Assembly: GCF_026241855.1 (NCBI RefSeq)
Contig: NZ_JAPJDC010000002.1
Span: 21,486 to 85,485, forward strand
Direction: 5' to 3'
DNA length: 64,000 nt
From: Curtobacterium flaccumfaciens pv. betae
GTDB taxonomy: Bacteria; Actinomycetota; Actinomycetes; Actinomycetales; Microbacteriaceae
Of the stretch, positions 7,808 through 29,852 are shown in pieces. Both the position numbers and the translations under genes were made by a program. How positions within the stretch are numbered: the stretch's first letter is position 1; the number at the start of each line of letters is the position of its first letter. The notes beneath the pieces are model-generated. The model made no database searches. It was given only the letters and a program-made list of their open reading frames with translations, and had not been told where the DNA came from.

Positions 7808-9214
7808 ATGACCGACATCACCGTGCTCGAGCAGACGCAGCTCCCCATCGGCGATTGGGAGTTCCCCCGCCTCGAGCCCCGCGGCTACGTCGAACCGCGC
7901 AACCGGATCTTGAAGCGCACCGGCTACTACGGCGGCCCCGTCAAGGGCGCCCCGTCGACGTCGCGGCAGGTCGAGGTGCTGAACCAGGGGATCCTGGAAT
8001 CTCCGATGCAGTTTGAGGGTCTGCTGTCCGGGGTCGAGACGCTGTCGAAGACGCCGAGCGTGAACGACCAGTTCCAGGCGTACGCGCTGGGTCTGGTCGA
8101 CTCCCCGAACGTCGTCGAAGCCGGCGACGTCGGCGTGGGCAAGTCGACGCTGATGAAGTGCGACTACGTCCTGCGCGCGCTGACGCTCCTGCGCCGCCGG
8201 GTAGTCGTCGTCGACAAGAAGCAGCAGTCCCCGACGGAACCGTGGGGCGAGTACACCAACGTCGCCCACACCGCCGGGGTCGACCCGATCCGGCTCGCCC
8301 TCGGCGACCGAGACGGGTCCCGGATCAACATGCTCGATCCGGCGCTGTCGCAGACCCGGTTCATCGCCGGCGACACTGGCGCCCTCATGGTGCTGCAGCA
8401 GGCGGCCGCGCTCCTGAACGACGGCACCCCGCTGGACACGTGGGAGCGGAAGGCGCTGCGAGCAGCGCTCCGCGACGGCGCCGCCCAGGCTCGGGCCCGT
8501 CAGCGGGTGGTGAACATCTACGACGTCCTTGACCACTGCGGTGTCATCAGCGACGAGCTCACCAGGCAGATGAGCCCCACCGCGCTCGAGCGGATGCACG
8601 AAGCCGGCCTCACGCTGCGGTTCATCCTCGAACGTCTCCCGGAAGAGATGCCGGGCCTGTTCGACGGCGAGACGTCGGAGAACGTCAAGCTCGGCGAGAA
8701 GCTGACCGTGTTCGACATCTCGCAGCTGCCCGAGGACGGCCCCGCGGTCCCGCTGGCGATGATGCTCGCCAACGCGTGGACCCTCGGCACGATCCGGCGG
8801 TCCGAGCCGGGGTGGAAGACGACGTTCTGCGTCGACGAGGGCTGGTTCCTCGTCGGCGGGCCGATGGGGAAGGTCATCCAGTCCAACGCGAAGCTCTCCC
8901 GCGCGCTGGGGCTGTCGAACGTGGTGAACATCCACCACATCTCCGACATCCCCGCCGACGACCCGGCGGTGGCGTTCATCAAGGAGGCCGGGACGATGCA
9001 CCTGTTCCGGCAGTCGAAGGCCGACGACGCTGTCGCGGCCGCGCAGATCGCCGGGCTGAAGCCCGGCGCGGCCGAGCAGCTCATGACCCTGCCGAAGGGG
9101 CAGCACTTCAAGAAGGTCGGCCTCGCCGCGGAGGTTCGGATCGCGCACTTCCGCTCCGAGCTCGAACGGCAGATCACCGACACCAGCGCCGGCCTGACGG
9201 GAGCAGCACTGTGA
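7808..9214 (+). CDS. VirB4-like conjugation ATPase (C-terminal ATPase half)
   Basis: The 468-residue product carries a Walker A GDVGVGKST near residue 105 and a Walker B-like FCVDEGWFLV near residue 338, followed by conserved Gln/Arg-containing strands (FRQSKADD, LPKGQHFKK). It would power assembly of the transfer channel and substrate passage at the inner membrane. Full VirB4 proteins are about 800 residues; here the N-terminal domain appears to be supplied by the preceding gene. A 61-nt gap with GAACAGGAACGAACCG lies before the ATG at 7808. The 3' end overlaps the lipoprotein start (GTGA). Confidence 0.9.
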   Translation: MTDITVLEQTQLPIGDWEFPRLEPRGYVEPRNRILKRTGYYGGPVKGAPSTSRQVEVLNQGILESPMQFEGLLSGVETLSKTPSVNDQFQAYALGLVDSPNVVEAGDVGVGKSTLMKCDYVLRALTLLRRRVVVVDKKQQSPTEPWGEYTNVAHTAGVDPIRLALGDRDGSRINMLDPALSQTRFIAGDTGALMVLQQAAALLNDGTPLDTWERKALRAALRDGAAQARARQRVVNIYDVLDHCGVISDELTRQMSPTALERMHEAGLTLRFILERLPEEMPGLFDGETSENVKLGEKLTVFDISQLPEDGPAVPLAMMLANAWTLGTIRRSEPGWKTTFCVDEGWFLVGGPMGKVIQSNAKLSRALGLSNVVNIHHISDIPADDPAVAFIKEAGTMHLFRQSKADDAVAAAQIAGLKPGAAEQLMTLPKGQHFKKVGLAAEVRIAHFRSELERQITDTSAGLTGAAL

Positions 9215-11825: not shown

Positions 11826-12517
11826 GACGCCGCACGAAGCAGCAGCTCGTCACAGCGGCCGCGCTGTTCGCGGCCGCTGCTGTCGGCACGATCGCCGCAC
11901 CCTACGTGCACCCCACGACGTCGATGGAACAGCCTTCTCCCTCGAGCACGGTGTCCGCGGCCAAAGCGCTACGAGATCTCCGCACGCTGGGGATCTCCGA
12001 CGCCTACGTGCCGGCGCCCTACGACCGCGCCGCATTCGGGCAGGCATGGGCCGACACCGACCACAACGGCTGCGACACCCGCAACGACGTCCTCCGGCGC
12101 GACCTGACGGCCGTCGTGACGAAGCCGGGCACCAACGGCTGCGTGGTGCTCTCCGGGACGCTCCACGACCCGTACACGGGCCGCACGATCGCGTTCGAGC
12201 GTGGGAACACGTCAAGCCTGGCCGTGCAGATCGACCACCGCGTCCCGTTGTCCTACGCATGGCGCCACGGCGCCGCGTCCTGGACGCCGCAGCAGCGGGA
12301 GCTGTTCGCCAACGACCAGGCGACGAACCTCGTCGCCGTCGACGGGCCAGCGAACGAAGAGAAGTCCGACTCCGGGCCCGCGGAGTGGATGCCGACGAAC
12401 ACCGGCGACGCCTGCAACTACGCGGCGTCGTTCGTCACCGTGGCCACGAAGTGGCAGCTGTCGATCTCCACCGACGACAAGCACGCGCTCGCACGCACCC
12501 TGACCACCTGCAGCTGA
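11822..12517 (+). CDS. secreted HNH-type nuclease (DUF1524/GmrSD C-terminal-like)
   Basis: The 231-residue product has a signal peptide or anchor (residues 6-28) and a nuclease domain with the motif QIDHRVPLSYAW near residue 140 and FANDQATNLVAVDG...KSD near 165-185. This is the pattern of secreted HNH nucleases of the DUF1524 group common in actinobacteria. Being exported, it would act on extracellular DNA, perhaps free or incoming DNA around mating cells (inference). The start is GTG 11822. Cys residues in NGC, DTRND and TGDAC could form disulphides. Confidence 0.8.
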   Translation: MRRRTKQQLVTAAALFAAAAVGTIAAPYVHPTTSMEQPSPSSTVSAAKALRDLRTLGISDAYVPAPYDRAAFGQAWADTDHNGCDTRNDVLRRDLTAVVTKPGTNGCVVLSGTLHDPYTGRTIAFERGNTSSLAVQIDHRVPLSYAWRHGAASWTPQQRELFANDQATNLVAVDGPANEEKSDSGPAEWMPTNTGDACNYAASFVTVATKWQLSISTDDKHALARTLTTCS

Positions 12518-13702: not shown

Positions 13703-15375
13703 TGGACACGCTCAAGGAACTCTGGGCCACGGTGCAGGTGTACGTGTGGCTCGGCGTCGTGGTGGTCGCGGCTTGGACCGGGCTGCACATCGCATCCGTC
13801 CAGGATCCGAAGGTGCGGGATCTGTCGTGGAACCCGCTCGACGTCGCCATGGACGCATTGAAGGGCCGGTTCCGGATGCCGGAGAGCGGCATCGTGTTCG
13901 CCATCGGCGCGGTCATCGTCGCCGTGGTGATCCTCATGGTGCTCTGGTTCGCCCTCCCGGCGATCTGGCACAAGGTGTTCGGGCCGTCGAAGCCGAAGGC
14001 GGAGGAAGGTTTCGCCGGCGTGCAGGAGCTGCAGGACCGAGCCGAGATCGGGTACAAGGTCGAGACGACCGCGCCCTACGCCTACATGGGTGACCACCCG
14101 ATCCGCGCGACGACCGAGGACGTGGCCACCGTCGTAGCACCACCCCGGTCCGGCAAGACGATGCGCCTGGTCATCCGGCTGATCCTCAAGGCGTTCGGTC
14201 CGGTCGTGTCGACGTCGACGAAGCCCGACGTCGTCCGGCTCACGGCCTGGCTCCGGGCCAAAGTCGGCACCGTGCACGTGTTCGACCCGGAGGGCGTGAC
14301 GAACTGGCCGACCCGGGTGAAGTGGGACATCGTCGCCGGGTGCGAGTCCGCGAAAGAGGCCACCCGGCGGGCGAAGACGATCATCGCGGCCCGTCCGCTC
14401 GCGGATGCCGGCAACGCGAAGTTCTTCGCCGGCACCGCGCAGAACGTGCTGCAGTGCCTGCTGCACGCAGCAGCACTGGGTGGCCACTCGATGCGCGACG
14501 TCGTGCTGTGGTCGAAGGACTTCTCGATCGACACCCCCTACGACGTGCTGCGGGAGCACCCGGACGCGAACCCGGGGTGGCTGTCGGACCTGCGGCGCTT
14601 CTGCCGATCCGAGGCTCACGACACGGTCGACAGCACCGACATGACTCTCCGCCTGGCGTTGGAGACCCTGGCGCTCGAGGAGATCCTCGACGCCGTCTGC
14701 CCGAAGGACGGCGACCCGGTGTTCGACGTCGACGCGTTCCTCGAGTCGACCGACACGCTCTACCTGCTCAGCGAGTCTGGAGAAGCATCGCTCGCGGCGC
14801 CCGTCATCACCGCGCTGGTGTCCACGATCGAGCGGCGCGCGAAGGCGCACGCGACGAAGTACCGCAACGGACGCCTGCCGAAGCCGTTGACGCTGGTCCT
14901 CGACGAGGTCGCGAACATCGCCCCGATCCCGGGCTTGCCGGCGCTCGTCACCGACGGCGGCGACCGCGGCATCATCACGTGGTCGTTCCACCAGGACCCC
15001 AAGGACGCCGAGACCCGATGGGGGAAGGCCGGCGGGAACAAGATCCTGAAGTCCTCGAACATCCTGATGGTGCTGGGCGGGATCAAGGACGACGACTATC
15101 TGGAGAGCCTGTCGAAGCTGTGCGCGGAGAAGGAAGCCGAGCGCATCGGCACCACTGAGTCGGTCAACGGCATGTCCACGTCGACGTCGACGATCAAGGA
15201 ACGCGTGATGACCGCCGGCGCGATCCGTCAGCTCGAGCCAGGCAAGGGGATGCTGTTCTACCGAGAGCTGCCGGTCGCGATCGTCGACCTGCCCGGCTGG
15301 TGGGAAGAGGACGACAAAGCTGCGATCGAAGAGGGCCAGAACTGGGCCTTCGAGCAGGAAGGGATCGCAGCATGA
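13702..15375 (+). CDS. VirD4/TraG-family coupling protein
   Basis: The 557-residue product links the relaxase-DNA complex to the channel. It has two membrane segments (about 14-32 and 71-95), Walker A APPRSGKT near residue 148 and Walker B LVLDEVANIAP near 397. A TraM-recognition-like region follows with TWSFHQDPKD and ILMVLGGIKDDDYLESL. The start shares one base with the previous stop (TGATG). Size and motif order fit VirD4/TraG proteins of Gram-positive elements that lack the N-terminal TcpA variation. Confidence 0.92.
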   Translation: MDTLKELWATVQVYVWLGVVVVAAWTGLHIASVQDPKVRDLSWNPLDVAMDALKGRFRMPESGIVFAIGAVIVAVVILMVLWFALPAIWHKVFGPSKPKAEEGFAGVQELQDRAEIGYKVETTAPYAYMGDHPIRATTEDVATVVAPPRSGKTMRLVIRLILKAFGPVVSTSTKPDVVRLTAWLRAKVGTVHVFDPEGVTNWPTRVKWDIVAGCESAKEATRRAKTIIAARPLADAGNAKFFAGTAQNVLQCLLHAAALGGHSMRDVVLWSKDFSIDTPYDVLREHPDANPGWLSDLRRFCRSEAHDTVDSTDMTLRLALETLALEEILDAVCPKDGDPVFDVDAFLESTDTLYLLSESGEASLAAPVITALVSTIERRAKAHATKYRNGRLPKPLTLVLDEVANIAPIPGLPALVTDGGDRGIITWSFHQDPKDAETRWGKAGGNKILKSSNILMVLGGIKDDDYLESLSKLCAEKEAERIGTTESVNGMSTSTSTIKERVMTAGAIRQLEPGKGMLFYRELPVAIVDLPGWWEEDDKAAIEEGQNWAFEQEGIAA

Positions 15376-16726: not shown

Positions 16727-19700
16727 TCAGAGACGCGGTCCGCGACGCTGATCCTGCTGCTGCCGCTGTCGTTCGGCCGCTTCCTGCTGCCTGCGGACCT
16801 GCTCGGTGCGCTCCTGCACGGCCGCGGTGGCAGCGCGCTGCTCGGCGGTCTGGTCAGCCTGCTGCGCTGCCGTCTGCCGTGCACGGAGCTCGGCAGCGAG
16901 CCGTGCGACCTCGTCGGCGGCCGACGCCGGCGCCAGCGCCAGCGCCGCCGGCTTCTCGACGGGTTCCACCGCGGGAGTGGCCACCGGAGGATCCGCAGGG
17001 CCGTCGCCGGGGCTGACGGCCTTGGGCACGCCTGCGGCGCGCTCGGGGGCGTCCGCGGCCGCGGTGCGGTCGGTCGCCGGCGGGGCCGCTTCGACAGTCG
17101 TCTCGGCCACGGGAACGGGGCCGGCGGTGTTCCGTTCGGCGCCGTCGCGATCGCGCATCCATCCGGTGCGGCGGAGGTCCTCGTGGGCCTGCTCCGCTTC
17201 CGCGAACGCGTGCCGGCTGTCGCGGTCGACCATGCCCGGGTCTGGAAGACGGTAGGCCTCGTCGGGGACGCCGTGGGCGTCGCGGTACGCGGCCACGGTG
17301 GCGACCTGCTCGCGCCAGGTGTCGCGAGCGTCGCCGTCCGCCGGCTGCATGCCGTACTGCGCCACCCACGCCGGCTTCTGCTCGAGGAGCCGGTCGACGT
17401 CGACCACGACGGCCGTCTCGGGCAGCGTGGCGGTCGACGTCGCGGCCGTGCGCGCGGTCGGGTCGATGCCCATGCGCTCGAGGGCGGCCGCGGACGCCTG
17501 CTCACGCGCCAGGCGGTCCTGCTGGGTGCGCAGGTCGAGCCCCGCTGCGCGGGCGTCCTGCCACGCCTGGACGGCGTGGGAGCCGCGGGGTTCCTCGCTG
17601 AGGACGGCTTCGCTCGCGGGCACCTCGAACGCTTCCCGGTACGCGACGATGCGGCCCATGTTCTCTCGCCACCGCTCCGCCTGCGCGGGGTCCGTGGGGA
17701 TCTGCCCGAACGGTTCCGCCCACGCCGGCGGTTCGGCAACGACCTGGTCGACGAGGGAGGTGATGCGGTCGCGCATCAGCTCCTGCTGGCCGTGGAGCCA
17801 GGTCCGCACCTCGGGTTCGCCGATGCGGTCGTTGAACGGCGTCACCCACTTGGGCAGCCCTGGCACGGGTTCGAGGTCGGTGCCGATCGCGGTGACCGGT
17901 CCGAGCCGATACCAGTAGACGCGAGCCGGCGACTGGATCGGGGAGATCTCGTCGAGATCCCGCGGACGGACAAGTCCCTGCAGCCGAGTGTGGAGTGCGG
18001 TGCCGGCGAGATCGTGGTCGACGAGGCGCGCGGCGAATGTCGACCAGGCTTCGTCGTTGATGATGTTCGCGGCGAGCTCAGCGGGAAGCGCGTCGCGGAC
18101 GGCCTGCGCGGCGCGCTCGAGTGCCTTCGGGTCGAGTGCCGCGACGCGGCCGTGGTCGTACTGCGGCAGCAGCGTCGTGAGGGAGTGCGCGTTGTCCTGC
18201 TCGCCCCGCAGGGTCTCCGTGGCGCTCTTGGTCGCGCCCTCGCGGCCGAGGACCTGCTCGAGGGCGCCCCGGATCGAGTTCTCACGCTCGTCGTCAGTGT
18301 GGCCGGAGGAGTCCAGCGGCTTGTCGATGACGACGTAGAGGCGGTTCTCCTCCTTCGCGCGGGTGCTGTCGACGTAGAGCTCTTCGCGGGTGGTGCGGTC
18401 CGGATCGATCACCGCGCCGCCGGTGGAGACGGTGTCGCCCTGGGTGCCGTGGCTGGTGCGTGCGTAGCCGAGCTGCACGTGCTCGTCGACGTACTCGAGC
18501 GGAAGCGTGACGGTGCCGCCGTGTACGTGCGACTTCGCCATGACGCCGTACGGGCCAACGGCGGTGACGGTCCACATGGCGTTGTTGGTGACCCAGTCCT
18601 TGCCCTGGTTCATCCGAAGGGACCGGTCCGTGTTGCGGGTGAGGATGACGTCTCCGGTGCCGACGGTGTTCCCGTCTGCGAGAAGCCGGCCGTCCTCCTG
18701 CACCTGGCCCTGGGCGACGCGGTCGGCGCGGGCCCGGGCGTTCAGCGCGGACACTTCCTCGTTGGTGCCGGCGATCATCAGCGACGACTTCCCGGCGGTC
18801 GTGTCGGCGTGCCAGTCGGTGTAGATCCGGTCCATGACTTCGTCGCGGGTGCCGGCGAACACCCGGCCGCGCTCGATGTAGAAGTCGAGACCGGTGGTGT
18901 CGCCGGTGCGGAGCTTCAGGGACGCGGCAGCTTCAGCGGTGGCGTGCTCGCCGGTGAAGCGGTGCACCTCCTCCAGGCGGGTGACGTCGGTCTCGCGCTC
19001 GAGCAGGCGGAGGACACCGCCGGCGCCGATGGAGCCGTGCTGCGCAGGGTCGCCGAGGGGACGGAGCGCAGCACCATGCTCGTCAGCGAGGGCGAGGAGA
19101 CGTCCCATGAGCGGCGTGCCGGCCATGGACGCTTCGTCGACGAGGAGAAGCGTGTTCGCGTCGATGCGGTGCTGCTCCGCCACGGGCCGTCCGCTGCGCT
19201 TCGCGTTCGCGTGGGCCTGCAGGAGCATGTCGGCTGTATCCGCGGTCGCGTCGAGCTCGCGGCCGAGAACTTCCGCCGCCTTACCGGTGGTGCCGAGCGC
19301 GAGCACGCGACCACCGCCAGCCTCGACGGCGTAGATCGTGGCCCGCATGGCGGTGGTCTTGCCGGTGCCGGCAGGGCCGATACCGGTCTCGATCCGGTGG
19401 CCACCGGTCGCGAACCGGCGTGCCAGCTCGACCTGCCCGGCGTTGAGCTCGTGGTGTCCGTCGGCGATCGCGCGGTCGTTGAACCGACGCATCGCGTCGT
19501 CGAACGCCTGCCGCTCCATTGCGAAACCGCCCCGGGTGCGGGCCGCGTCGAGGATCGCTTCTTCGGTGCGGAGGGTCTTCTCGGAGGTGAACTCCTCGGC
19601 GCGGTGGATCCGGAAGACGCTCTCACCGTTGCTGCGCTGCAGCTGCGCCGGCGTGGGGTTCAGCTCCGGCGGGGTGAGCGATATCGACCGCTGCACGGCC

Positions 19701-21355
19701 GCGGCGGTGATGTCGCGGGTGAGGGCCTGGACGTCCTGCCCGGTGGCCTGCGCGACGCGGCGCGCGACGCGCTCTGCCTCGGCCTGCAGGTGCGAGTCCT
19801 TCCACGTCGACCGGTCCTGCTCAACCCGCGTGACGACCAGGTTCCCGAGCTGCTGCACGCTCTGCCCAGCAAGCAGATCCTGCGCCGGCATCGCGTTCGA
19901 CTGAGCAACGATGCCCGCCGCCCACCCGTGGACATGCACCTTCTCGGAAGCAGAACGACGCCACTCGGCGACCTGGTCCTGCTCCGACGACGGCGGTGCT
20001 TTGTGATCGCGTGTGGCGAGGTTCGCCTGCTCGTAGAGCTTGTGCTGGATGTTCTTCGGCGGGGTGTGTCCGTGGGCGGCCACGTACTCGTCGACGAGCT
20101 CCGCGTACGCCTGCTCGATCCCGACGCGGCGTGAAGAGAAGCCCTCGCGGAGGCTGCGATCGACGCCCATGATCTCGCGCACGTCACGCTTGCCAGCGCC
20201 CCGGGACTCGTCGACGAACTGCACACCGAGACGGTTCCGCAACTCCTCCTCGACGAGCGAGTTGTACCGCTCGGAGGCAGCGACACCGAGGCGGTGCAGC
20301 ATGCGCCCGTCGAGCGATCGCCACTTCCCATCGACGCCCTCAACCTTGGTCGAAACGGCGACGTGGGTGTGCAGGTCGGGGTCGCCGGTGCGGGAGTCGC
20401 GGTGCTCGAACGCAGCGACGAGGAGGCCCTTCGTTTCGACCTGCGCGACGCCGCCGGCTCCGGTCCGGGTGAACGCTGCTTCCTCCTGCAGGAACGTCAT
20501 CGCACCCTGCCACGCAGCCTCGTGGGAGGCGTGCACCTCGCGTGCGATGTGCGCCTCACGGGGGTCGTTCCGGTCCGCCAACGCCCACAGCAGGGAGACC
20601 GACTTCACGGGGCTGAACACCAGGTCGTAGCCCGCGACGGGCTGGCGAGGCGGGGTGCCACGCTCGGTCAGGAACCGTGCGACCTCACCGGTGGTGGCCT
20701 CTCGGCCGAGCGCGCCGCGCAGGTGATCGGCGGCGAGGTTGTGCTTCACCAGGTCACGTTCCGGACCGGTCTCGGGGTTCCGGCCGACCTCGTCGCGGAA
20801 CCCCTGGTAGCCGCGGGAGACCTGCTGCTTCCAGTCCGGGACACGGAGCGCGACGAACCAGGACACCTCGTCCGACGTGGCCGGGCGACGCAGCGACTTC
20901 TGCAGCATGGCGAACGCGACGTCGGCCTTGATGCCGGACAGTTCGGCGGCGGCAGGGGCGCGGTGGTTGTCCCGCTCGAACGCGACGGACGCAGCGTGGA
21001 TCTGCACCTGCCACTCGGTGTCGGGGTCGTTCGTGGTCATGAACCGACGGCCCAGCCGGGCGGCGTCGATGGCCTCGGAGGCGGACGCGCCGGCGGCGAT
21101 CTGCTCCTGAATGAAGGCGGTTGCGTCAGGGCGCAGCCCCTCACCGAAGAGGGCCTGCATCTGCTCTGCGGACACCTGCCCGGACACCCCCAGGGACGCC
21201 AGGCCGTTGCCCCACCACTGGCCGGGCTTGGCACCCTCAGCGGTGTAGTAGTCCGTGAGGTCTTCGCTTCGCCGGACCTGCTGATCGCCCGCCGCAACCT
21301 GGTTCGTCAGATATGAGTATCCGTCACCTGCGTGCAGGACGTGCACCGTCATCAC
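16727..21355 (-). CDS. traA: MobF-type relaxase-helicase (TrwC/TraA-like)
   Basis: The 1542-residue product nicks oriT and unwinds the transferred strand. The N-terminal relaxase part has candidate catalytic Tyr residues in GDGYSYL and TDYY, the block LVFSPVKSVSLLWAL near 240, and the metal-binding HTHVAVS near residue 335. The helicase has Walker A GPAGTGKTT near 660 and LLVDEASMAG with a following GDPAQ. The C-terminal 350 residues hold repeats of the type PAWAEPFG...WRENMGRIVAYREA and a Glu/Gln-rich coiled tail. The start could be GTG 21355 or ATG 21352, with AGGAGG 9 or 12 nt upstream. A long open frame on the opposite strand is a shadow. Confidence 0.95.
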   Translation of the reverse strand: MMTVHVLHAGDGYSYLTNQVAAGDQQVRRSEDLTDYYTAEGAKPGQWWGNGLASLGVSGQVSAEQMQALFGEGLRPDATAFIQEQIAAGASASEAIDAARLGRRFMTTNDPDTEWQVQIHAASVAFERDNHRAPAAAELSGIKADVAFAMLQKSLRRPATSDEVSWFVALRVPDWKQQVSRGYQGFRDEVGRNPETGPERDLVKHNLAADHLRGALGREATTGEVARFLTERGTPPRQPVAGYDLVFSPVKSVSLLWALADRNDPREAHIAREVHASHEAAWQGAMTFLQEEAAFTRTGAGGVAQVETKGLLVAAFEHRDSRTGDPDLHTHVAVSTKVEGVDGKWRSLDGRMLHRLGVAASERYNSLVEEELRNRLGVQFVDESRGAGKRDVREIMGVDRSLREGFSSRRVGIEQAYAELVDEYVAAHGHTPPKNIQHKLYEQANLATRDHKAPPSSEQDQVAEWRRSASEKVHVHGWAAGIVAQSNAMPAQDLLAGQSVQQLGNLVVTRVEQDRSTWKDSHLQAEAERVARRVAQATGQDVQALTRDITAAAVQRSISLTPPELNPTPAQLQRSNGESVFRIHRAEEFTSEKTLRTEEAILDAARTRGGFAMERQAFDDAMRRFNDRAIADGHHELNAGQVELARRFATGGHRIETGIGPAGTGKTTAMRATIYAVEAGGGRVLALGTTGKAAEVLGRELDATADTADMLLQAHANAKRSGRPVAEQHRIDANTLLLVDEASMAGTPLMGRLLALADEHGAALRPLGDPAQHGSIGAGGVLRLLERETDVTRLEEVHRFTGEHATAEAAASLKLRTGDTTGLDFYIERGRVFAGTRDEVMDRIYTDWHADTTAGKSSLMIAGTNEEVSALNARARADRVAQGQVQEDGRLLADGNTVGTGDVILTRNTDRSLRMNQGKDWVTNNAMWTVTAVGPYGVMAKSHVHGGTVTLPLEYVDEHVQLGYARTSHGTQGDTVSTGGAVIDPDRTTREELYVDSTRAKEENRLYVVIDKPLDSSGHTDDERENSIRGALEQVLGREGATKSATETLRGEQDNAHSLTTLLPQYDHGRVAALDPKALERAAQAVRDALPAELAANIINDEAWSTFAARLVDHDLAGTALHTRLQGLVRPRDLDEISPIQSPARVYWYRLGPVTAIGTDLEPVPGLPKWVTPFNDRIGEPEVRTWLHGQQELMRDRITSLVDQVVAEPPAWAEPFGQIPTDPAQAERWRENMGRIVAYREAFEVPASEAVLSEEPRGSHAVQAWQDARAAGLDLRTQQDRLAREQASAAALERMGIDPTARTAATSTATLPETAVVVDVDRLLEQKPAWVAQYGMQPADGDARDTWREQVATVAAYRDAHGVPDEAYRLPDPGMVDRDSRHAFAEAEQAHEDLRRTGWMRDRDGAERNTAGPVPVAETTVEAAPPATDRTAAADAPERAAGVPKAVSPGDGPADPPVATPAVEPVEKPAALALAPASAADEVARLAAELRARQTAAQQADQTAEQRAATAAVQERTEQVRRQQEAAERQRQQQDQRRGPRL

Positions 21356-25871: not shown

Positions 25872-25906
25872 GCGGGAGGGGGCAATTACGACTTGTCCCC
25901 TCCCGC
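25872..25906 (-). promoter_or_regulatory. hairpin element A upstream of the LPD29-like gene
   Basis: Ten paired bases (25872-25881 with 25897-25906) close a loop that on the minus strand contains GACAAGTCGTAATTGCC. The element before the ParB-like gene (28815-28867) has an unrelated stem but the same loop elements GACAA and TAATTGCC. Shared loop with different stems suggests an RNA signal or protein-binding hairpin rather than a plain terminator. Confidence 0.5.
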
Positions 25907-25912
25907 GTTGGA

Positions 25913-26119
25913 TCACTCCGCGGGTGGCGTGTAGGTGATCGTGTCGACGAACGTGGCGAGTTCGATGCCCTCCAGGACGGCCGTGTTCGTGAGCGTCCAG
26001 CCCAACGACGCGGCGGTCTTGAGTTCCGCGGATCGCTCTCGCAGAGCCGCCGTCCTCGCTTCCGTTGCGTCGTCCGCCTTGCTAACTGCGGTGACAATGG
26101 TTTCGATCTGATATCGCAT
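25913..26119 (-). CDS. small leader-associated protein
   Basis: The 68-residue product begins MRYQIETIVTAVSKADD and is a predicted alpha-beta protein with a hydrophobic middle. A long purine-rich ribosome-binding stretch (GAGAGGGAGAGGAAG) precedes its ATG, nearly the same as before the DUF3846-like gene. It is translated immediately after structured RNA copy 1 and is followed by hairpin A. Function unknown. Confidence 0.65.
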   Translation of the reverse strand: MRYQIETIVTAVSKADDATEARTAALRERSAELKTAASLGWTLTNTAVLEGIELATFVDTITYTPPAE

Positions 26120-26144
26120 TTGTTCTTCCTCTCCCTCTCGTTTT

Positions 26145-26335
26145 TTTGCCGTGAAGGCGACTTGTCGCCGCTAGGACGGGAGGGTGTAGTGCAACCCGAA
26201 GGGCGGAGGGGGAGAGAATTTCGGCGCGAAATAAGGGAGCGAAGCGACCGCGTGCCGAAAATCTCGGAGGATCCGGCGGCTTGCCGCTTGCGCGGAACCC
26301 GGATGGACGTACGCTGCCGAAGGCTTCACGGCAAA
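26145..26335 (-). ncRNA. structured leader RNA, copy 1
   Basis: On the minus strand this 191-nt stretch is closed by a 12-bp stem (26145-26156 with 26324-26335). It contains a middle stem (26214-26225 with 26254-26265) and a small hairpin GGCGAC-AA-GTCGCC next to the closing stem. Copy 2 at 29311-29527 keeps the same order and the same single-stranded strings (GAAGCCTTCGGC, GTCCTA) but changes both sides of each stem together, which is covariation. It ends 25 nt before the 68-aa gene, so it is a 5' leader or a processed RNA. I do not recognise it as a named class. Confidence 0.65.
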
Positions 26336-26466
26336 GAAACGGGCCGGAGGCCCAGACAGTGCCGGCGAAGTCGGTTCCACCCGGAGCGAAGCGACTCCCG
26401 GCCTCCGGCCGGAAGCCCTGCCCCGGAAACCCTGTCCGCTACTGTGTGGGCGATTCAGGGGGTCAC

Positions 26467-27102
26467 ATGAAGCGACGACAACGACGGGTACCCGTCCCGT
26501 CTGCTGCAACGCTCGGAGTGCGTGCCGGCGGGGTGCGAGATGTTCCTCGCCTCACGGTTTGGTCCTGGCGCATGGTGCCGCGCAACCCGGTCTACGTCTG
26601 GCTCATCGTCGGGGTCGCGGCGATCTCGTGTGTGGGAATGCTGCTGTTCGGAGATCCGCTGTGGATAGCGCTTGCTATCGCACCGATTGTCGCGGTCCTC
26701 ACGGCGTTCACGATCACCGCGGCGTCAGGACTCGCGTGGGCCTGCCTCGCTTTGGGCCGACACACGGTGATCTATATGACCGCCGACGCTGCGCTGAGCT
26801 TGTCGACCGGCATCGACCGTCGGGGGCAACCTCGCTGGCAGGTTTTCGAGCACCTTGCCCGCGATCGGGGCGGCTACGGGCGTGCACTGCGAGACCAGAT
26901 CGCGCCCGGCATCTGTGCGGCGGCCGACCACGCCGGCGTCCCGATCATGGCGACGGCGGTCGATCGGCGCGTCCTCGGGATCTACCTCAACACCCTCGCC
27001 GCGTTCGAAGTTGAGCGGTGGAAGGGCCGCAGGGTCATCCGCTGGCCGCGACAGGCTGCGGACGTGAGCCAGGCGCCTACCGGGAACCTGTCGGCCTCCT
27101 AG
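26467..27102 (+). CDS. membrane-anchored protein with GNAT-like cytoplasmic domain
   Basis: The 211-residue product has a basic N-terminus, two close membrane segments (about 41-60 and 64-95), then a soluble part. In it RDRGGYGRALRDQI and the following IMATAVDRRVLGIYLN segment resemble motif A and the end of GNAT acetyltransferases. The start at 26467 follows GGGGGTCAC. It is alone on the plus strand and divergent from the structured leader. The acetyltransferase idea is tentative; without the anchor match it would be a hypothetical membrane protein. Confidence 0.7.
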   Translation: MKRRQRRVPVPSAATLGVRAGGVRDVPRLTVWSWRMVPRNPVYVWLIVGVAAISCVGMLLFGDPLWIALAIAPIVAVLTAFTITAASGLAWACLALGRHTVIYMTADAALSLSTGIDRRGQPRWQVFEHLARDRGGYGRALRDQIAPGICAAADHAGVPIMATAVDRRVLGIYLNTLAAFEVERWKGRRVIRWPRQAADVSQAPTGNLSAS

Positions 27103-27286
27103 GCGCTGTTTAGCGCGGCGCCGCTCTGCGGTGTCGTCGCGATGCGAGCTCCGTCGAGCAGCGCCGGGGTCGGGGAGGGGGCGGGGCCCCTTGCCGCGGC
27201 GGCGGAGCCGTCGCGCAGCCACGGACACCAGGACGGCCCGATGCGACACCTACGGGCCGGAATGGGACACGAACCGGGGCCGGGTG

Positions 27287-27319
27287 GGCGTGGGGGCCGC
27301 TGGCTGCGACCCCCACGCC
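27287..27319 (-). terminator. hairpin after the ParB-like gene
   Basis: GGCGTGGGGG (27287-27296) pairs with CCCCCACGCC (27310-27319) just beyond the ParB-like stop. No T tract follows, as is common in GC-rich actinobacteria, so function as terminator is probable but not certain. The rest of 27103-27326 shows no gene. Confidence 0.45.
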
Positions 27320-27326
27320 GGTTCAC

Positions 27327-28790
27327 CTACTCGGCGGTCGTGGCCTCGCCGTCCTCCGGCTCTGCGTCGGGCTGGATGCCTGCGGCGATCTTCTCGACCG
27401 GGCTGAGTGGGTAGCCCCACGCGGCCAACTGGTTGAGGTAGCCGCGGGAGTCGGCGTCCGGGGTGCGCCACCACTCACGGTTCGCCGTGTTCTCGAACCC
27501 GGCGAACACCACCGCGAGGGACATGTGCAGCCCCTTCGCGGGGTGCTGCTCGACCCACTGGGAGAGCGTGTCGCCGTCCCACCCGCTCGACTCGATGCCG
27601 AGCAGACTGCGGGCGCTCACCATGCCGGAGGCGTACCGGGTGTTGGCGTGGCGCGTGAGCGCGATCGCCAGGAACCGGGCGGCGTCCTTCGGCGCGTTCT
27701 TGCGCTGCAGGAGCGTCGCAACGAACTCGCGGCGCACGTCGTCGGCGGCGTCCCACGCCTTGTTGTTGGCGACCAGGAGCCGACGTGCGGCCTTCCGTTC
27801 CTCCGCCTCGGCTTCGGCGTCCGCGTCGGACTTCGGCTCGGCCGGGGTCGACGCCGGGACGCCGACGCCGATGCGCCCGACGCGGAGCGTGTGGACGTTC
27901 GGCGTCGCGCACACGGGAACGGCGACGACCTCGCCGTACTGTCGCACCTCGTACGCCGCGCCGGGGCACTCGGCGTGCTCGTCCTCGGTGATCGGGGTTC
28001 GGTCGTCGTAGGCGATCACGTCGTCACCGGCGTTGGTGAACCGGGACAGCGGTGCGTAGTCGTCGTCATCGGTCACAACCCGCTTGCCCGCTGCGGTCAG
28101 TTCCGCGGTGAGCGCGTCCACCGCGGCGGCACGCTCCCGGTCACGGCGGAGGCGCGCAGCGACGTGGGCCAGTTCGTCGTCGTCGTAGCCCTCCGCAATC
28201 CACTCCGTCAGTTCGGTGACTGCTTCGTCGTCGCCGTCGAACTCGGCCAGCAGCAGCGCCTGGGTGAACGTCGCCTGCCCGGACGCCACGGCCGTGGCTG
28301 CCGCGTCCGACTTCGCGACGGTCAGGGTCTGCTTCACGGCGTCACGCTTCGTGCCTGTCTCGCGGGCGATCGCGGTGACCGACAGGCCCTCGATTTCCAA
28401 CTGGCGGTACGCCGCCAGGCGGTCGCCGTCCGACAGGGCGGTGCGGCGCTCGTTGGCGACCAACTGCTCCGCGATCCGCTTGGCGGTGCTGTCGTCACGG
28501 GCCGTGACGAACACCGGGACGGCCACAGCAGCCTCGCGGGCGGCGAGGACGCGCATCTGCCCGTCGCGGACCAACACAGCCCCGTCAGCGTTCCGGTAGC
28601 CGATGGTCGGCAGGAGCACCCCGTGACGCTTCACGGAGGCTAGGAACGCCGGGTCGAGGTCGGCCGCGGTGCGGACGTTGTTCTCGATCACCACGTCCGC
28701 CGCGGGGACGTGCACCAGGTCGACGCCGCTCGCGTCGGGCTGGGGCTGGTCGGTCAGGTGGGTGACGGTGATGTGTTCTGCAATGCTCAT
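27327..28790 (-). CDS. ParB-like protein
   Basis: The 487-residue product has a ParB/Srx-type N-terminal domain. It reads VPAADVVIENNVRTAADLD, then the block VKRHGVLLPTIGYRN, then VRDGQMRVLAAREA with VPVFV. A central helix-turn-helix region (GLSVTAIARETGTKRDAVKQ, about 140-160) and a long C-terminal helical part follow. It could bind a centromere-like site or act as a regulator. No ParA gene is in the window, so classical partitioning is unproved. Its leader contains hairpin B and it lies downstream of the DUF3846-like gene. Confidence 0.85.
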   Translation of the reverse strand: MSIAEHITVTHLTDQPQPDASGVDLVHVPAADVVIENNVRTAADLDPAFLASVKRHGVLLPTIGYRNADGAVLVRDGQMRVLAAREAAVAVPVFVTARDDSTAKRIAEQLVANERRTALSDGDRLAAYRQLEIEGLSVTAIARETGTKRDAVKQTLTVAKSDAAATAVASGQATFTQALLLAEFDGDDEAVTELTEWIAEGYDDDELAHVAARLRRDRERAAAVDALTAELTAAGKRVVTDDDDYAPLSRFTNAGDDVIAYDDRTPITEDEHAECPGAAYEVRQYGEVVAVPVCATPNVHTLRVGRIGVGVPASTPAEPKSDADAEAEAEERKAARRLLVANNKAWDAADDVRREFVATLLQRKNAPKDAARFLAIALTRHANTRYASGMVSARSLLGIESSGWDGDTLSQWVEQHPAKGLHMSLAVVFAGFENTANREWWRTPDADSRGYLNQLAAWGYPLSPVEKIAAGIQPDAEPEDGEATTAE

Positions 28791-28814
28791 GGTCTTGATA
28801 CGCTTTCCGGTAGT

Positions 28815-28867
28815 GACCGGGTGCGGGTCCTGGCAATTAGTGGTTGTCGGGAACTCCGCACCCGGTC
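28815..28867 (-). promoter_or_regulatory. hairpin element B upstream of the ParB-like gene
   Basis: Twelve paired bases (28815-28826 with 28856-28867) close a loop that on the minus strand holds CGACAACCACTAATTGCC, matching the loop signature of hairpin A. On the plus strand TTTTT follows at 28868, so it could also block antisense transcription. It lies 24 nt before the ParB-like start. Confidence 0.5.
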
Positions 28868-28894
28868 TTTTTCTATGGGTGGGACTGCTGGGTG

Positions 28895-29290
28895 TTACTG
28901 CTGGCGGAACACTGCGGACAGTGCTTCCGCCCGGGTGAGCGCCGTTCGTGCATGTTGGAAGGCGCGCATGACGGCCGTGTACTGATCCGGCGACAGCGAC
29001 CGGGTGTCCCCGGCTTCGTCGTAGGTCAGGAACAGGACCGTCCCGTACAGCGGCGACGCCGCCCGGGAACGCCCGAGGTCAACCGCTGCGACGGTGGCGA
29101 GGTCGTTGCGCTCCCCCGCGTACATGCCCTCGTCATCGATCCACGCGTCGATCCGGCCGTCGAGGCGGACCACGTCCACCAGGCGGCACCCGATCTGCTC
29201 CCGCGTGCCCTGCAGGGTCGACTCACGTGCGTTCACGACGACGCCTTCAACCGCACCATCTGCGGTCGCTCGAATACCCATCAACTTCAT
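28895..29290 (-). CDS. DUF3846-like protein
   Basis: The 131-residue product has the features of DUF3846: an early GTREQIG string and VVRLDGRIDAWIDDEGMYAGERNDLATVAA, followed by LYGTVLFLTYDEAG. These proteins are common on actinobacterial plasmids and phages and are of unknown function. The ATG at 29290 follows the purine-rich GAAAGGGAGAGGAAG; an ATG at 29281 is possible. The gene is preceded by structured RNA copy 2 and followed by hairpin B and the ParB-like gene. Confidence 0.8.
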   Translation of the reverse strand: MKLMGIRATADGAVEGVVVNARESTLQGTREQIGCRLVDVVRLDGRIDAWIDDEGMYAGERNDLATVAAVDLGRSRAASPLYGTVLFLTYDEAGDTRSLSPDQYTAVMRAFQHARTALTRAEALSAVFRQQ

Positions 29291-29310
29291 TTCCTCTTCC
29301 TCTCCCTTTC

Positions 29311-29527
29311 GTTGTTTGCCCGGGAAGGCACGTAGTGCCGATAGGACGAGGAGCCGGGGTGCAAGCCCAAAGCGGCGACGCTCCGAGAAGTTTCGATCGG
29401 CGCCGTCCATTGACGGAGGAGATGAGCCCGACGGTGCCGGTCGAAAGTTCTCGCGTGCGGCGGTGGCGACGGCTTGCGGCCCGGAACCTCGTCCGTACAA
29501 TCGCCGAAGGCTTCCCGGGCAAACAAC
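29311..29527 (-). ncRNA. structured leader RNA, copy 2
   Basis: A perfect 17-bp stem (29311-29327 with 29511-29527) closes a 217-nt region. A near-perfect 20-nt inner stem joins 29385-29404 with 29433-29452. The small hairpin GGCAC-TAC-GTGCC next to the closing stem matches the place of GGCGAC-AA-GTCGCC in copy 1. The unpaired strings GAAGCCTTCGGC and GTCCTA are shared. It ends 20 nt before the DUF3846-like start. Paired positions differ in compensating ways, which supports an RNA rather than a DNA repeat. Confidence 0.65.
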
Positions 29528-29852
29528 GAACCCGTCAGGGTTCGACAAGCACTGGCCGGCTTGCCGGCTCCCCTCAGACAAGATCAGCCCGCCGAAGGCG
29601 GCCCGCTCAGACCAGAACAGGCCGCCGCCGGCGGTCCGCTTGGATCCCGCGTGCTTGAGGAGCTCGCCGGCGCGCAGAGACCAGCGAACGTGAAGCGGCC
29701 CCGGCCTGTTGGGGGGAACAGACCGGGGCCGGCTGCAGCTCGAGCGAATTGGGGGGCTGCTCGAGCCGCGACGCCCGAAGCCACTGGGGGGAATGGTCCG
29801 GACGCAGACCATCACGGTACGCATGACCCCCGACGTCGGCAACCGGGGCCGG
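29528..29852. other. gap with three G-tract repeats
   Basis: No gene is supported. Three runs of six G (29711-29716, 29751-29756 and 29786-29791), each preceded by T and flanked by partly complementary short arms, are spaced about 40 and 35 bp. They could be protein-binding iterons or hairpins. The part at 29545-29650 is rich in short GCCGGC palindromes. A promoter for leader copy 2 should be here. Confidence 0.4.

Follow-up and report, generated by a model that had tools for sequence, protein, structure and literature searches.

A covarying element before plasmid-type genes of Curtobacterium flaccumfaciens as a candidate single-stranded-DNA promoter

Two copies of one element and the genes behind them

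At positions 26139-26341 and 29308-29530 of the window, the 64,000-nucleotide stretch of Curtobacterium flaccumfaciens pv. betae (contig NZ_JAPJDC010000002.1) analyzed here, a single structured element occurs in two diverged copies. The genes around them are as follows.

25913..26119, minus strand: gene after copy 1 (68 aa; no Pfam family)
27327..28790, minus strand: 487-aa gene (relative in NZ_OR589120 annotated as ParB N-terminal domain protein; no Pfam family at 0.01)
28895..29290, minus strand: DUF3846 gene after copy 2 (Pfam PF12957, E 1.2e-10)
16727..21355, minus strand: MobF-type relaxase gene (TrwC PF08751, E 2.4e-77), towards which both elements read

BLASTN at E 1e-3 did not match the copies with one another; copy 2 was recovered at E 2.8e-17 by covariance model R1, whose 17 training sequences included copy 1 and excluded copy 2. 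Their parts, given on the folded strand, are listed below.

26139..26341, folded strand plus, gene served on minus: element copy 1 (219.1 bits with R1, as a training member)
26139..26156, plus: copy 1 closing stem P1, 5' arm (P1 helix of the 17-sequence alignment)
26324..26341, plus: copy 1 P1, 3' arm
26156..26169, plus: copy 1 hairpin P5, adjoining the bubble (covariation left uncounted, because the alignment shifts the P5 loop)
26170..26179, plus: copy 1 stretch opposite the -10-like box in the fold (contains, read on the other strand, the GTCCTA of the first-pass annotation)
26189..26194, plus: copy 1 GTGCAA, partner of the -35-like box (helix 2, 92.9% of cells paired)
26229..26253, plus: copy 1 conserved apical motif, GAA triloop and facing GA pairs
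26288..26293, plus: copy 1 -35-like box TTGCGC
26310..26315, plus: copy 1 -10-like box TACGCT, 16 nt from the -35-like box
26316..26324, plus: copy 1 hairpin GCCGAAGGC, GAA triloop
26341..26374, plus: two extra hairpins beyond P1 of copy 1, with GGA and GAA loops on this strand
29308..29530, folded strand plus, gene on minus: element copy 2, interior different from copy 1 (86.8 bits, outside the R1 training set)
29308..29327, plus: copy 2 P1, 5' arm
29511..29530, plus: copy 2 P1, 3' arm
29327..29339, plus: copy 2 hairpin P5, GTA triloop
29359..29367, plus: copy 2 GTGCAAGCC, partner of the -35-like box, opposite GGCTTGCGGC at 29471-29480 in the fold
29474..29479, plus: copy 2 -35-like box TTGCGG
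29496..29501, plus: copy 2 -10-like box TACAAT, 16 nt from the -35-like box
29503..29511, plus: copy 2 hairpin GCCGAAGGC
29527..29568, plus: two extra hairpins beyond P1 of copy 2

The first-pass annotation had placed both copies at nearly these coordinates; its bounds were close, with more hairpins directly outside them (26341-26374 and 29527-29568). The small hairpins that it described (GGCGAC-AA-GTCGCC and GGCAC-TAC-GTGCC) are both present, and the closing stem that it gave copy 2 exists, at 20 pairs, all perfect, rather than 17 bp. P1 of copy 1 has 18 pairs, one of them C.A on the mRNA strand and G.T on the other. A string reported as unpaired is not plainly so, because the closing stem takes up GAAG as its inner end and GCCTTCGGC is able to fold into a hairpin of 3 bp. 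P1 covaries in each copy, and from its end to the ATG we measured 19 nt (copy 1) and 17 nt (copy 2), short of the 20 to 25 nt given there. The same genome carries three further copies, all chromosomal, one of them truncated.

Covariation and distribution of the family

Copy 1 was aligned with 16 of 26 candidates (17 sequences); the alignment omits one close relative of copy 1, types with longer inserts, and distant members from Dietzia, Gordonia, Kocuria, Paraoerskovia, and the record L082. The consensus structure pairs in 94.8% of cells, and 25 of its 49 pairs have changed on both sides, a level of covariation reached by none of 500 shuffled alignments, which bears out the suggestion that the copies covary beyond chance. 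Slid versions of the structure gave only 6 to 11 pairs and 43 to 51%, part of this excess being expected because the structure was derived from the same alignment.

Covariance model R1 picks up relatives in 22 of 150 Microbacteriaceae genomes and also matches Dietzia, Gordonia, and Paraoerskovia (members found, with copy 2, in a search of 57 sources). The apical motif occurred in 106 distinct instances, 37 of which failed the P1 filter (truncated, distant, or weak stems). For strand and box statistics, a set of 30 elements was drawn from 75 of 77 model matches, one truncated and one partial match being excluded. Three oddly named records carry the apical motif (Patescibacteria L021, Planctomycetaceae L071, and Deinococci L082); L021 and L071 had no P1 passing the filter, and L082, which has full elements, is perhaps a misbinned actinobacterial plasmid.

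The element was rightly called unnamed: Rfam 15 gave 0 matches at gathering scores over the whole window and 0 at E values up to 1 over 25900-29700. Phage records, searched with copy 1 only, and IMG/VR, searched with the apical pattern, gave no match, and no published description of such elements in Actinobacteria was found in a search that ran mostly outside subscription journals.

Genes behind the elements include ArdC, ParB-N, DUF3846, glutaredoxin, and other leading-type genes (families assigned for 10 neighbor proteins chosen by eye from 42); the relatives thus stand before DUF3846 and similar plasmid genes, as had been anticipated. An open reading frame with a ribosome-site-like string follows within 130 nt in 86 of 90 instances, at a median distance of 20.5 nt.

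The folding strand

The strand that folds is the template strand of the gene, not its mRNA strand. On the template strand of 30 diverse elements, GNA triloops number 30 (26 closed by C-G) and TNC triloops 0; on the mRNA strand, stems of at least 5 bp carry 61 TNC and 0 GNA loops among 98 triloops. The flanks hold 11 TNC and 13 GNA among 88 triloops. Composition gives a mild TNC bias, since shuffled elements also have more TNC than GNA (17 versus 6 of 275). Mismatches in 48 distinct P1 stems, read on the mRNA strand, comprise 15 A.C versus 4 G.T, so that the template strand prefers G.T to A.C; the commonest class, T.C (14 of 43), speaks for neither wobble. The mRNA strand is also the less stable in 30 of 30 elements; as a sole strand test, fold energy was set aside as weak, since the flanks lean the same way (67 of 101).

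These tests bear on the original interpretation, in which the mRNA strand folds, as a leader, a riboswitch, or an RNA that binds a protein, to control the gene that follows. The element does lie directly 5' of start codons, and the mRNA strand can fold as well (z -6.0 for copy 2 and -2.5 for copy 1), but its loops are TNC rather than GNRA or UNCG, its P1 mismatches are A.C rather than G.U, its fold is the weaker one throughout, and Rfam gives no match. We dropped the mRNA leader, now very improbable, on the loop, mismatch, and energy tests, which favor the complementary strand; what stands of the first-pass annotation is a widespread, unnamed, covarying, and probably regulatory element, without the mRNA leader.

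Tetraloops were tried as a test of DNA against RNA and rejected as too few (inside P1, 3 GNRA, 11 CNNG, and 17 others; n = 31), so that context and box position are what decides between DNA and RNA of the same strand. With RNA parameters the template strand is again the more stable in 30 of 30 elements.

Promoter-like boxes and known systems

The fold places a -35-like TTG box inside a helix (helix 2) and leaves a -10-like TANNNT box largely unpaired; the usual spacing is 16 nt, and in the folded state the boxes aim along the closing stem into the gene. Of 30 elements, 16 have the pattern TTG-(15 to 17)-TANNNT in the 3' half of their template strand and 0 have it on the other strand; for the relaxed NANNNT form the counts are 20 of 30 and 0, respectively. 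Spacing 16 was seen in 10 of 32 and spacing 15 in 3 of 32, with shuffles near 0. The Dietzia boxes are TTGAC(A/C/G)-16-AAGACT or AATGAT (identified by eye, as was the sequence pairing with the -35-like box in individual members).

The position of these boxes weighs against the least probable explanation that we considered, in which transcription of the opposite strand across the start of the gene yields a structured antisense RNA. RNA of that strand would be in keeping with the GNA loops, the facing GA pairs, and the G.U wobbles, and also with the greater stability of that strand under RNA parameters in all 30 elements; the recurrent boxes, however, sit at the 3' end of the fold, and a transcript started there would miss most of the structure. 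Box orientation raises another account, an ordinary double-stranded promoter and operator for a gene on the other side, with the inverted repeats binding a protein. In duplex DNA the boxes do face away from the downstream gene, and the far-side neighbor is divergent in 7 of 15 annotated cases (by eye, from incomplete gene tables), but it is co-directional in 8 of 15. The copy 2 type in L011 belongs to these eight, as do the two Dietzia elements, which keep their boxes. As this account also leaves unexplained the two-sided covariation over a 200-nt fold and the GNA loops, we regard it as hardly credible.

Single-stranded-DNA promoters are best known from Escherichia coli plasmids. We put at roughly 75% the probability that each copy is a fold-back single-stranded-DNA promoter for leading-region genes, Frpo-like in its working, on the grounds of the covariation, the strand tests, the boxes and the distance between them, the kinds of gene that follow, the agreement with the relaxase strand, and the layout of plasmid F. 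During conjugation, the plasmid would enter the recipient single-stranded, leading region first, and the entering strand would be the template of the leading-region genes. This transferred strand would fold, the long P1 closing it, the -35-like TTG box becoming double-stranded within a helix, and the -10-like TANNNT box staying open in a mostly unpaired stretch, with two small hairpins adjoining. RNA polymerase would bind the fold, initiate near the inner end of P1, and run outward along P1 onto the single-stranded template, the gene starting about 20 nt on. Second-strand synthesis would abolish the fold and leave duplex boxes facing away from the gene, and expression would on that account be a short burst.

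With the relaxase gene as the reference point, element and relaxase gene share a strand in 21 of 23 contigs, and in 18 of 23 the element lies upstream of the relaxase gene, aimed at it as written; in three same-strand contigs it lies past the relaxase gene unless the contig is circular. Against the promoter reading, the element is opposite to the relaxase strand in two contigs (G008:C6 and G028:C4), the strict boxes are missing in 14 of 30 elements, and even the NANNNT form is missing in 10 of 30.

The same strand and the same fold would be expected of a single-strand initiation site only, where primase or RNA polymerase, drawn in by the transferred strand in its folded form, would prime the second strand and ordinary promoters would drive the genes. 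Leading regions carry several copies each, and the original Frpo paper, going by its title, reportedly covers primer synthesis too. Priming alone, however, needs no open reading frame with a ribosome-site-like string at a median of 20.5 nt, and we consider this explanation unlikely by itself; priming and promoter roles may go together.

Taking the promoter reading further, we think it more likely than not that a large family of direction-switching promoters arose on actinobacterial conjugative plasmids, separately from Frpo, in which duplex boxes face away from the gene and the folded entering strand fires the same boxes into it. The -10 box would stand open beside two hairpins, GNA hairpins and facing GA pairs would serve as scaffold, and establishment and anti-defense gene sets would be on for only minutes after entry. 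Two surveys (PMC11541004 and PMC12826799) took Frpo sequences, known or candidate, as BLAST queries, and one of them added consensus searches in four islands; surveys of this kind would be unlikely to catch the actinobacterial family. If the promoter reading holds, the single-stranded-DNA promoter principle reaches Actinobacteria, leading regions and unknown establishment and anti-defense genes gain a marker searchable by covariance tools, and GNA versus TNC loops with G.T versus A.C mismatches provide a sequence-only strand test for DNA elements. Some covariation-based plasmid RNA candidates may, as a caution, be folded DNA of the opposite strand.

Among known systems, the single-strand origins of rolling-circle plasmids (sso, and sti of pIJ101) consist of some 200 nt of single-stranded DNA whose fold serves the host RNA polymerase of Gram-positive bacteria; their known role is to prime DNA synthesis, and they are not known to occur as copies placed about 20 nt 5' of start codons. 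EGeRS1 of the Bacillus pLS20 family, as described in PMC8708921, is a conserved 400- to 600-bp sequence with many inverted repeats that precedes ardC and other establishment operons and has no strong sigma-A promoter. It resembles the actinobacterial elements in its Gram-positive host, inverted repeats, and position before ardC-type genes, but is longer, and the authors of PMC8708921 considered a promoter of the single-stranded-DNA kind highly unlikely in that system, given that the strand transferred is not the template. Model R1 gave no match on positions 1-45000 of the 65774 bases of the pLS20 record, a part that may or may not include EGeRS1.

Single-stranded-DNA promoters have been described for plasmids F and ColIb-P9, where, according to PMC9849209 and PMC11541004, several leading-region copies of Frpo/ssi precede ssb, anti-restriction, and ParB-like genes reading towards oriT, and the folded single strand is said to rebuild -35 and -10 boxes. 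Neither copy resembles plasmid F in sequence (best BLASTN E 1.5 against F 48000-68000), and R1 gave no match on the F region. Our own analysis found the same layout on plasmid F, with the template strand folding better in the Frpo2 region too. Like Frpo/ssi, the actinobacterial elements are multiple, stand before ParB-like and anti-restriction-type genes, and, in 16 of 30 (strict pattern) or 20 of 30 (relaxed pattern) elements, have boxes that the fold may rebuild. They differ in host group (Actinobacteria), in a GC-rich fold with many small GNA hairpins (the tested F regions have no GNA loops, and the GNA signature is therefore not general to such promoters), and in a -10-like box that adjoins two hairpins.

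Two elements of one structured family

The window, taken from an 85,485-base contig, holds a relaxase gene and two elements of about 200 nt, a long closing stem (P1) enclosing each of the two.

Elements and relaxase gene of the window
26139-26341, gene side minus: copy 1, bounded by P1; a 68-aa open reading frame (ORF) starts 19 nt further
29308-29530, gene side minus: copy 2, bounded by P1; a DUF3846 gene starts 17 nt further
16727-21355, minus: MobF gene

The fold of these elements is real. Copy 1 and copy 2 gave no BLASTN match to each other at E 1e-3, and the sequence of P1 is quite different between subfamilies. In an alignment of 17 sequences (A2, including copy 1 and without copy 2), 94.8% of cells were paired and 25/49 pairs had two-sided changes, in 44 cells; none of 500 shuffles equaled any of these values. 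Slid controls gave only 6 to 11 pairs and 43 to 51% paired, part of this difference being expected because the structure was derived from the same alignment (RNAalifold consensus minus three pairs that we removed). Against dinucleotide shuffles (DNA energies), fold z was −3.7 (copy 1) and −10.9 (copy 2) on the template strand, plus in the window, and −2.5 and −6.0, respectively, on the complementary mRNA strand. Covariance model R1, which has 204 positions and 49 pairs and was derived from 17 folded-strand sequences, recovered copy 2 (E 2.8e-17), which was outside its training set, so the two covarying copies of one structured element proposed in the first-pass annotation hold. R1 also recovered Dietzia, Paraoerskovia, and Gordonia members, none used in building it, and matched 22/150 Microbacteriaceae genomes, spread over 18/85 genera. 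Rfam gave no match (whole window at gathering scores; 25900-29700 at E up to 1), and the element remains unnamed, as first described.

BLASTN against plasmid records matched copy 1 in 84 cases (E 0.01), copy 2 in 30 (E 0.01), and a chromosomal copy in 90 (E 0.1), some of the last being short or within the gene part of the query. Every genus was actinobacterial among the matches listed, and the nearest plasmids of copy 1 were from Curtobacterium (up to 98% identity across most of copy 1), which makes Curtobacterium or a close relative the probable host. Phage records queried with copy 1 gave no match.

Three interior types were distinguished: apical, TTTCGCGGCATA-bearing, and that of copy 2. 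The apical motif, a conserved GAA-loop motif (window 26229-26253, AAATAAGGGAGCGNAGCGACCGCGT, folded strand), is the best conserved sequence, beyond what pairing requires, and may be the binding site of a protein; it is absent from copy 2 and the other interior types. Its pattern occurred in 108 stretches of one-genome-per-species contigs, in 19/299 Microbacteriaceae genomes, in 0 IMG/VR sequences, and, in an even draw across the phylum, in 1/396 genomes, namely our own.

Elements of the second interior type (TTTCGCGGCATA and TATTCCACG replacing the apical motif, outer fold unchanged), by locus
L013: 13415-13579
L018: 7101-7267
L050: 2060-2234
L068: 6940-7114
L075: 3346-3512
L117: 5661-5836

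A Paraoerskovia plasmid (L017), matched at six places in the BLASTN search, carries three near-identical elements in about 7 kb (7853-8062, 11933-12142, and 14910-15119), which precede genes for a ParB-N and a DUF4192 protein and a short ORF and all read towards MobC and a relaxase. The chromosome of our own assembly has two further full copies and one truncated copy (G000:C1 2786823-2835000; L003, L006, and L007); this region suggests an integrated conjugative element or plasmid, because it holds a MobF relaxase gene along with these three elements, and all four lie on the minus strand. The third element has the 5′ half only and then runs into a gene resembling the window's 487-aa ParB-like gene.

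The folding strand

The template strand is the folding strand. In a set of 42 non-redundant elements, extended by flanks of at most 70 nt, triloops on the mRNA strand numbered 98 for stems of at least 5 bp (61 TNC, 0 GNA) and 141 for stems of at least 4 bp (81 TNC, 4 GNA). Flank pieces (n = 172) gave 88 triloops (11 TNC, 13 GNA), and mononucleotide shuffles of the elements gave 275, of which 17 TNC versus 6 GNA indicate a mild TNC bias from composition alone. On the template strand, 30 P1-bounded elements had 30 GNA, 0 TNC, and 20 other triloops, the N of GNA being any of the four bases and the closing pair C-G in 26/30. C-G-closed GNA triloops are unusually stable in DNA. Extraordinarily stable hairpins are treated in general terms in PMC10527192.

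Template-strand hairpins of the form GG-xx-GC-loop-GC-yy-CC had GA opposite GA in 28/31 matches and CA opposite TG, normally paired, in 1/31; the facing GA pairs would become pyrimidine mismatches on the mRNA strand. Within P1 (48 distinct stems, 782 pairs, found by Watson-Crick rules only), 43 mismatches included, on the mRNA strand, 4 G.T and 15 A.C, the latter therefore being 15 G.T on the template strand, and 14 T.C, uninformative on strand. In A2, whose structure itself leans towards the template strand, 18 departures from the majority pair were G.T and 6 were A.C as read on that strand. These loops and mismatches speak against the mRNA leader that had been proposed on the minus strand. 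The template strand was also more stable in 17/17 and 30/30 elements, a weak test by energy alone because flank pieces lean likewise (67/101 with DNA and 76/101 with RNA parameters). Gene context and the position of the boxes, rather than loop chemistry, are what distinguish folded DNA from an antisense RNA.

Promoter-like boxes and gene context

Boxes of the window elements (template strand)
Copy 1: TTGCGC 26288-26293, 16 nt, TACGCT 26310-26315
Copy 2: TTGCGG 29474-29479, 16 nt, TACAAT 29496-29501

TTGNNN and TANNNT are frequent in actinobacterial promoters. TTG was retained in 17/17 and TANNNT in 16/17 sequences of A2. In the template strand 3′ half, TTG-(15 to 17)-TANNNT occurred in 16/30 non-redundant elements (14/30 without) and the relaxed NANNNT form in 20/30 (10/30 without); the other strand of the same 30 had 0 of either form. 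An earlier set of 32 had spacing 16 in 10 and 15 in 3, against about 0 on average in dinucleotide shuffles, which take no account of common descent. The far diverged Dietzia elements read, by eye, TTGAC(A, C, or G)-16-AAGACT or AATGAT.

On the 5′ side, GTGCAA is the partner of the TTG box (A2 helix 2, 92.9% of cells), and opposite the −10-like box lies the GTCCTA stretch singled out in the first-pass annotation. Two hairpins stand beside the largely unpaired stretch that contains the −10-like box. By eye, the equivalent place has TAGACA opposite TGTCTA in a chromosomal copy and TTGACCCC paired with GGGGTCAA in one Dietzia element. The boxes run 5′ to 3′ into the P1 3′ arm; in the fold, the 5′ arm would then be the template, and the exit path would continue to the gene. 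In duplex DNA, the same boxes are aimed the opposite way.

An ORF of at least 40 aa with a ribosome-site-like string started within 130 nt in 86/90 instances (median distance, 20.5 nt; 40 nt or less in 66), with ORF calls mechanical, some starts or frames surely wrong, and members related, so that counts across elements are not independent events. Ten downstream proteins chosen by eye from 42 included 8 with a Pfam match (ArdC N-domain, 2; ParB_N, 2; DUF4192, glutaredoxin, DUF3846, and DUF6349, 1 each). Annotated neighbors include SSB, ArdC, Fic with a VbhA-type antitoxin, LPD29, DUF3560, MobC with relaxase, and MobF; ArdC is reportedly needed in the recipient during conjugation (PMC7213743).

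Across 38 genomes (our own and 37 behind selected loci, 40 loci named), 23 contigs carried both the apical motif and a match to TrwC or Relaxase, on the same strand in 21 and opposite strands in 2, cases of agreement that are not independent because some plasmids are close relatives. The element lay upstream of the relaxase, reading towards it, in 18/23 as the contig is written (one of these having a second element that does not fit) and in 3/23 only if the contig is circular. The two exceptions (G008:C6 46335 and G028:C4 14458) may reflect a rearrangement, another oriT, or a true exception.

Comparison with Frpo and EGeRS1

In layout and apparent logic, the elements resemble Frpo, the single-stranded-DNA promoter of plasmid F, and are probable single-stranded-DNA promoters. 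According to PMC9849209 and PMC11541004, leading-region single strands of F fold, rebuild −35 and −10 boxes, and are required for early expression in recipients. The layout in F is alike, leading genes reading towards traM. As a control, the template strand was the more stable in the F region before ssb (reported Frpo2 site; −89.1 versus −81.6) and in that before the anti-restriction gene (−95.4 versus −88.7); in two further stretches of F, the values were −43.7 versus −52.3 and −26.3 versus −23.4. No GNA hairpins occurred in the tested F regions, so this signature is peculiar to the actinobacterial family, not general. R1 matched neither plasmid F 48000-68000 nor pLS20 1-45000.

The nearest Gram-positive case is EGeRS1 of the Bacillus plasmid pLS20, which its authors (PMC8708921) consider highly unlikely to be a single-stranded-DNA promoter because the transferred strand is the non-template strand; in the actinobacterial elements, the template strand folds. 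The loop and mismatch tests are applicable to EGeRS1 (L127, pLS20) and could tell which of its strands folds.
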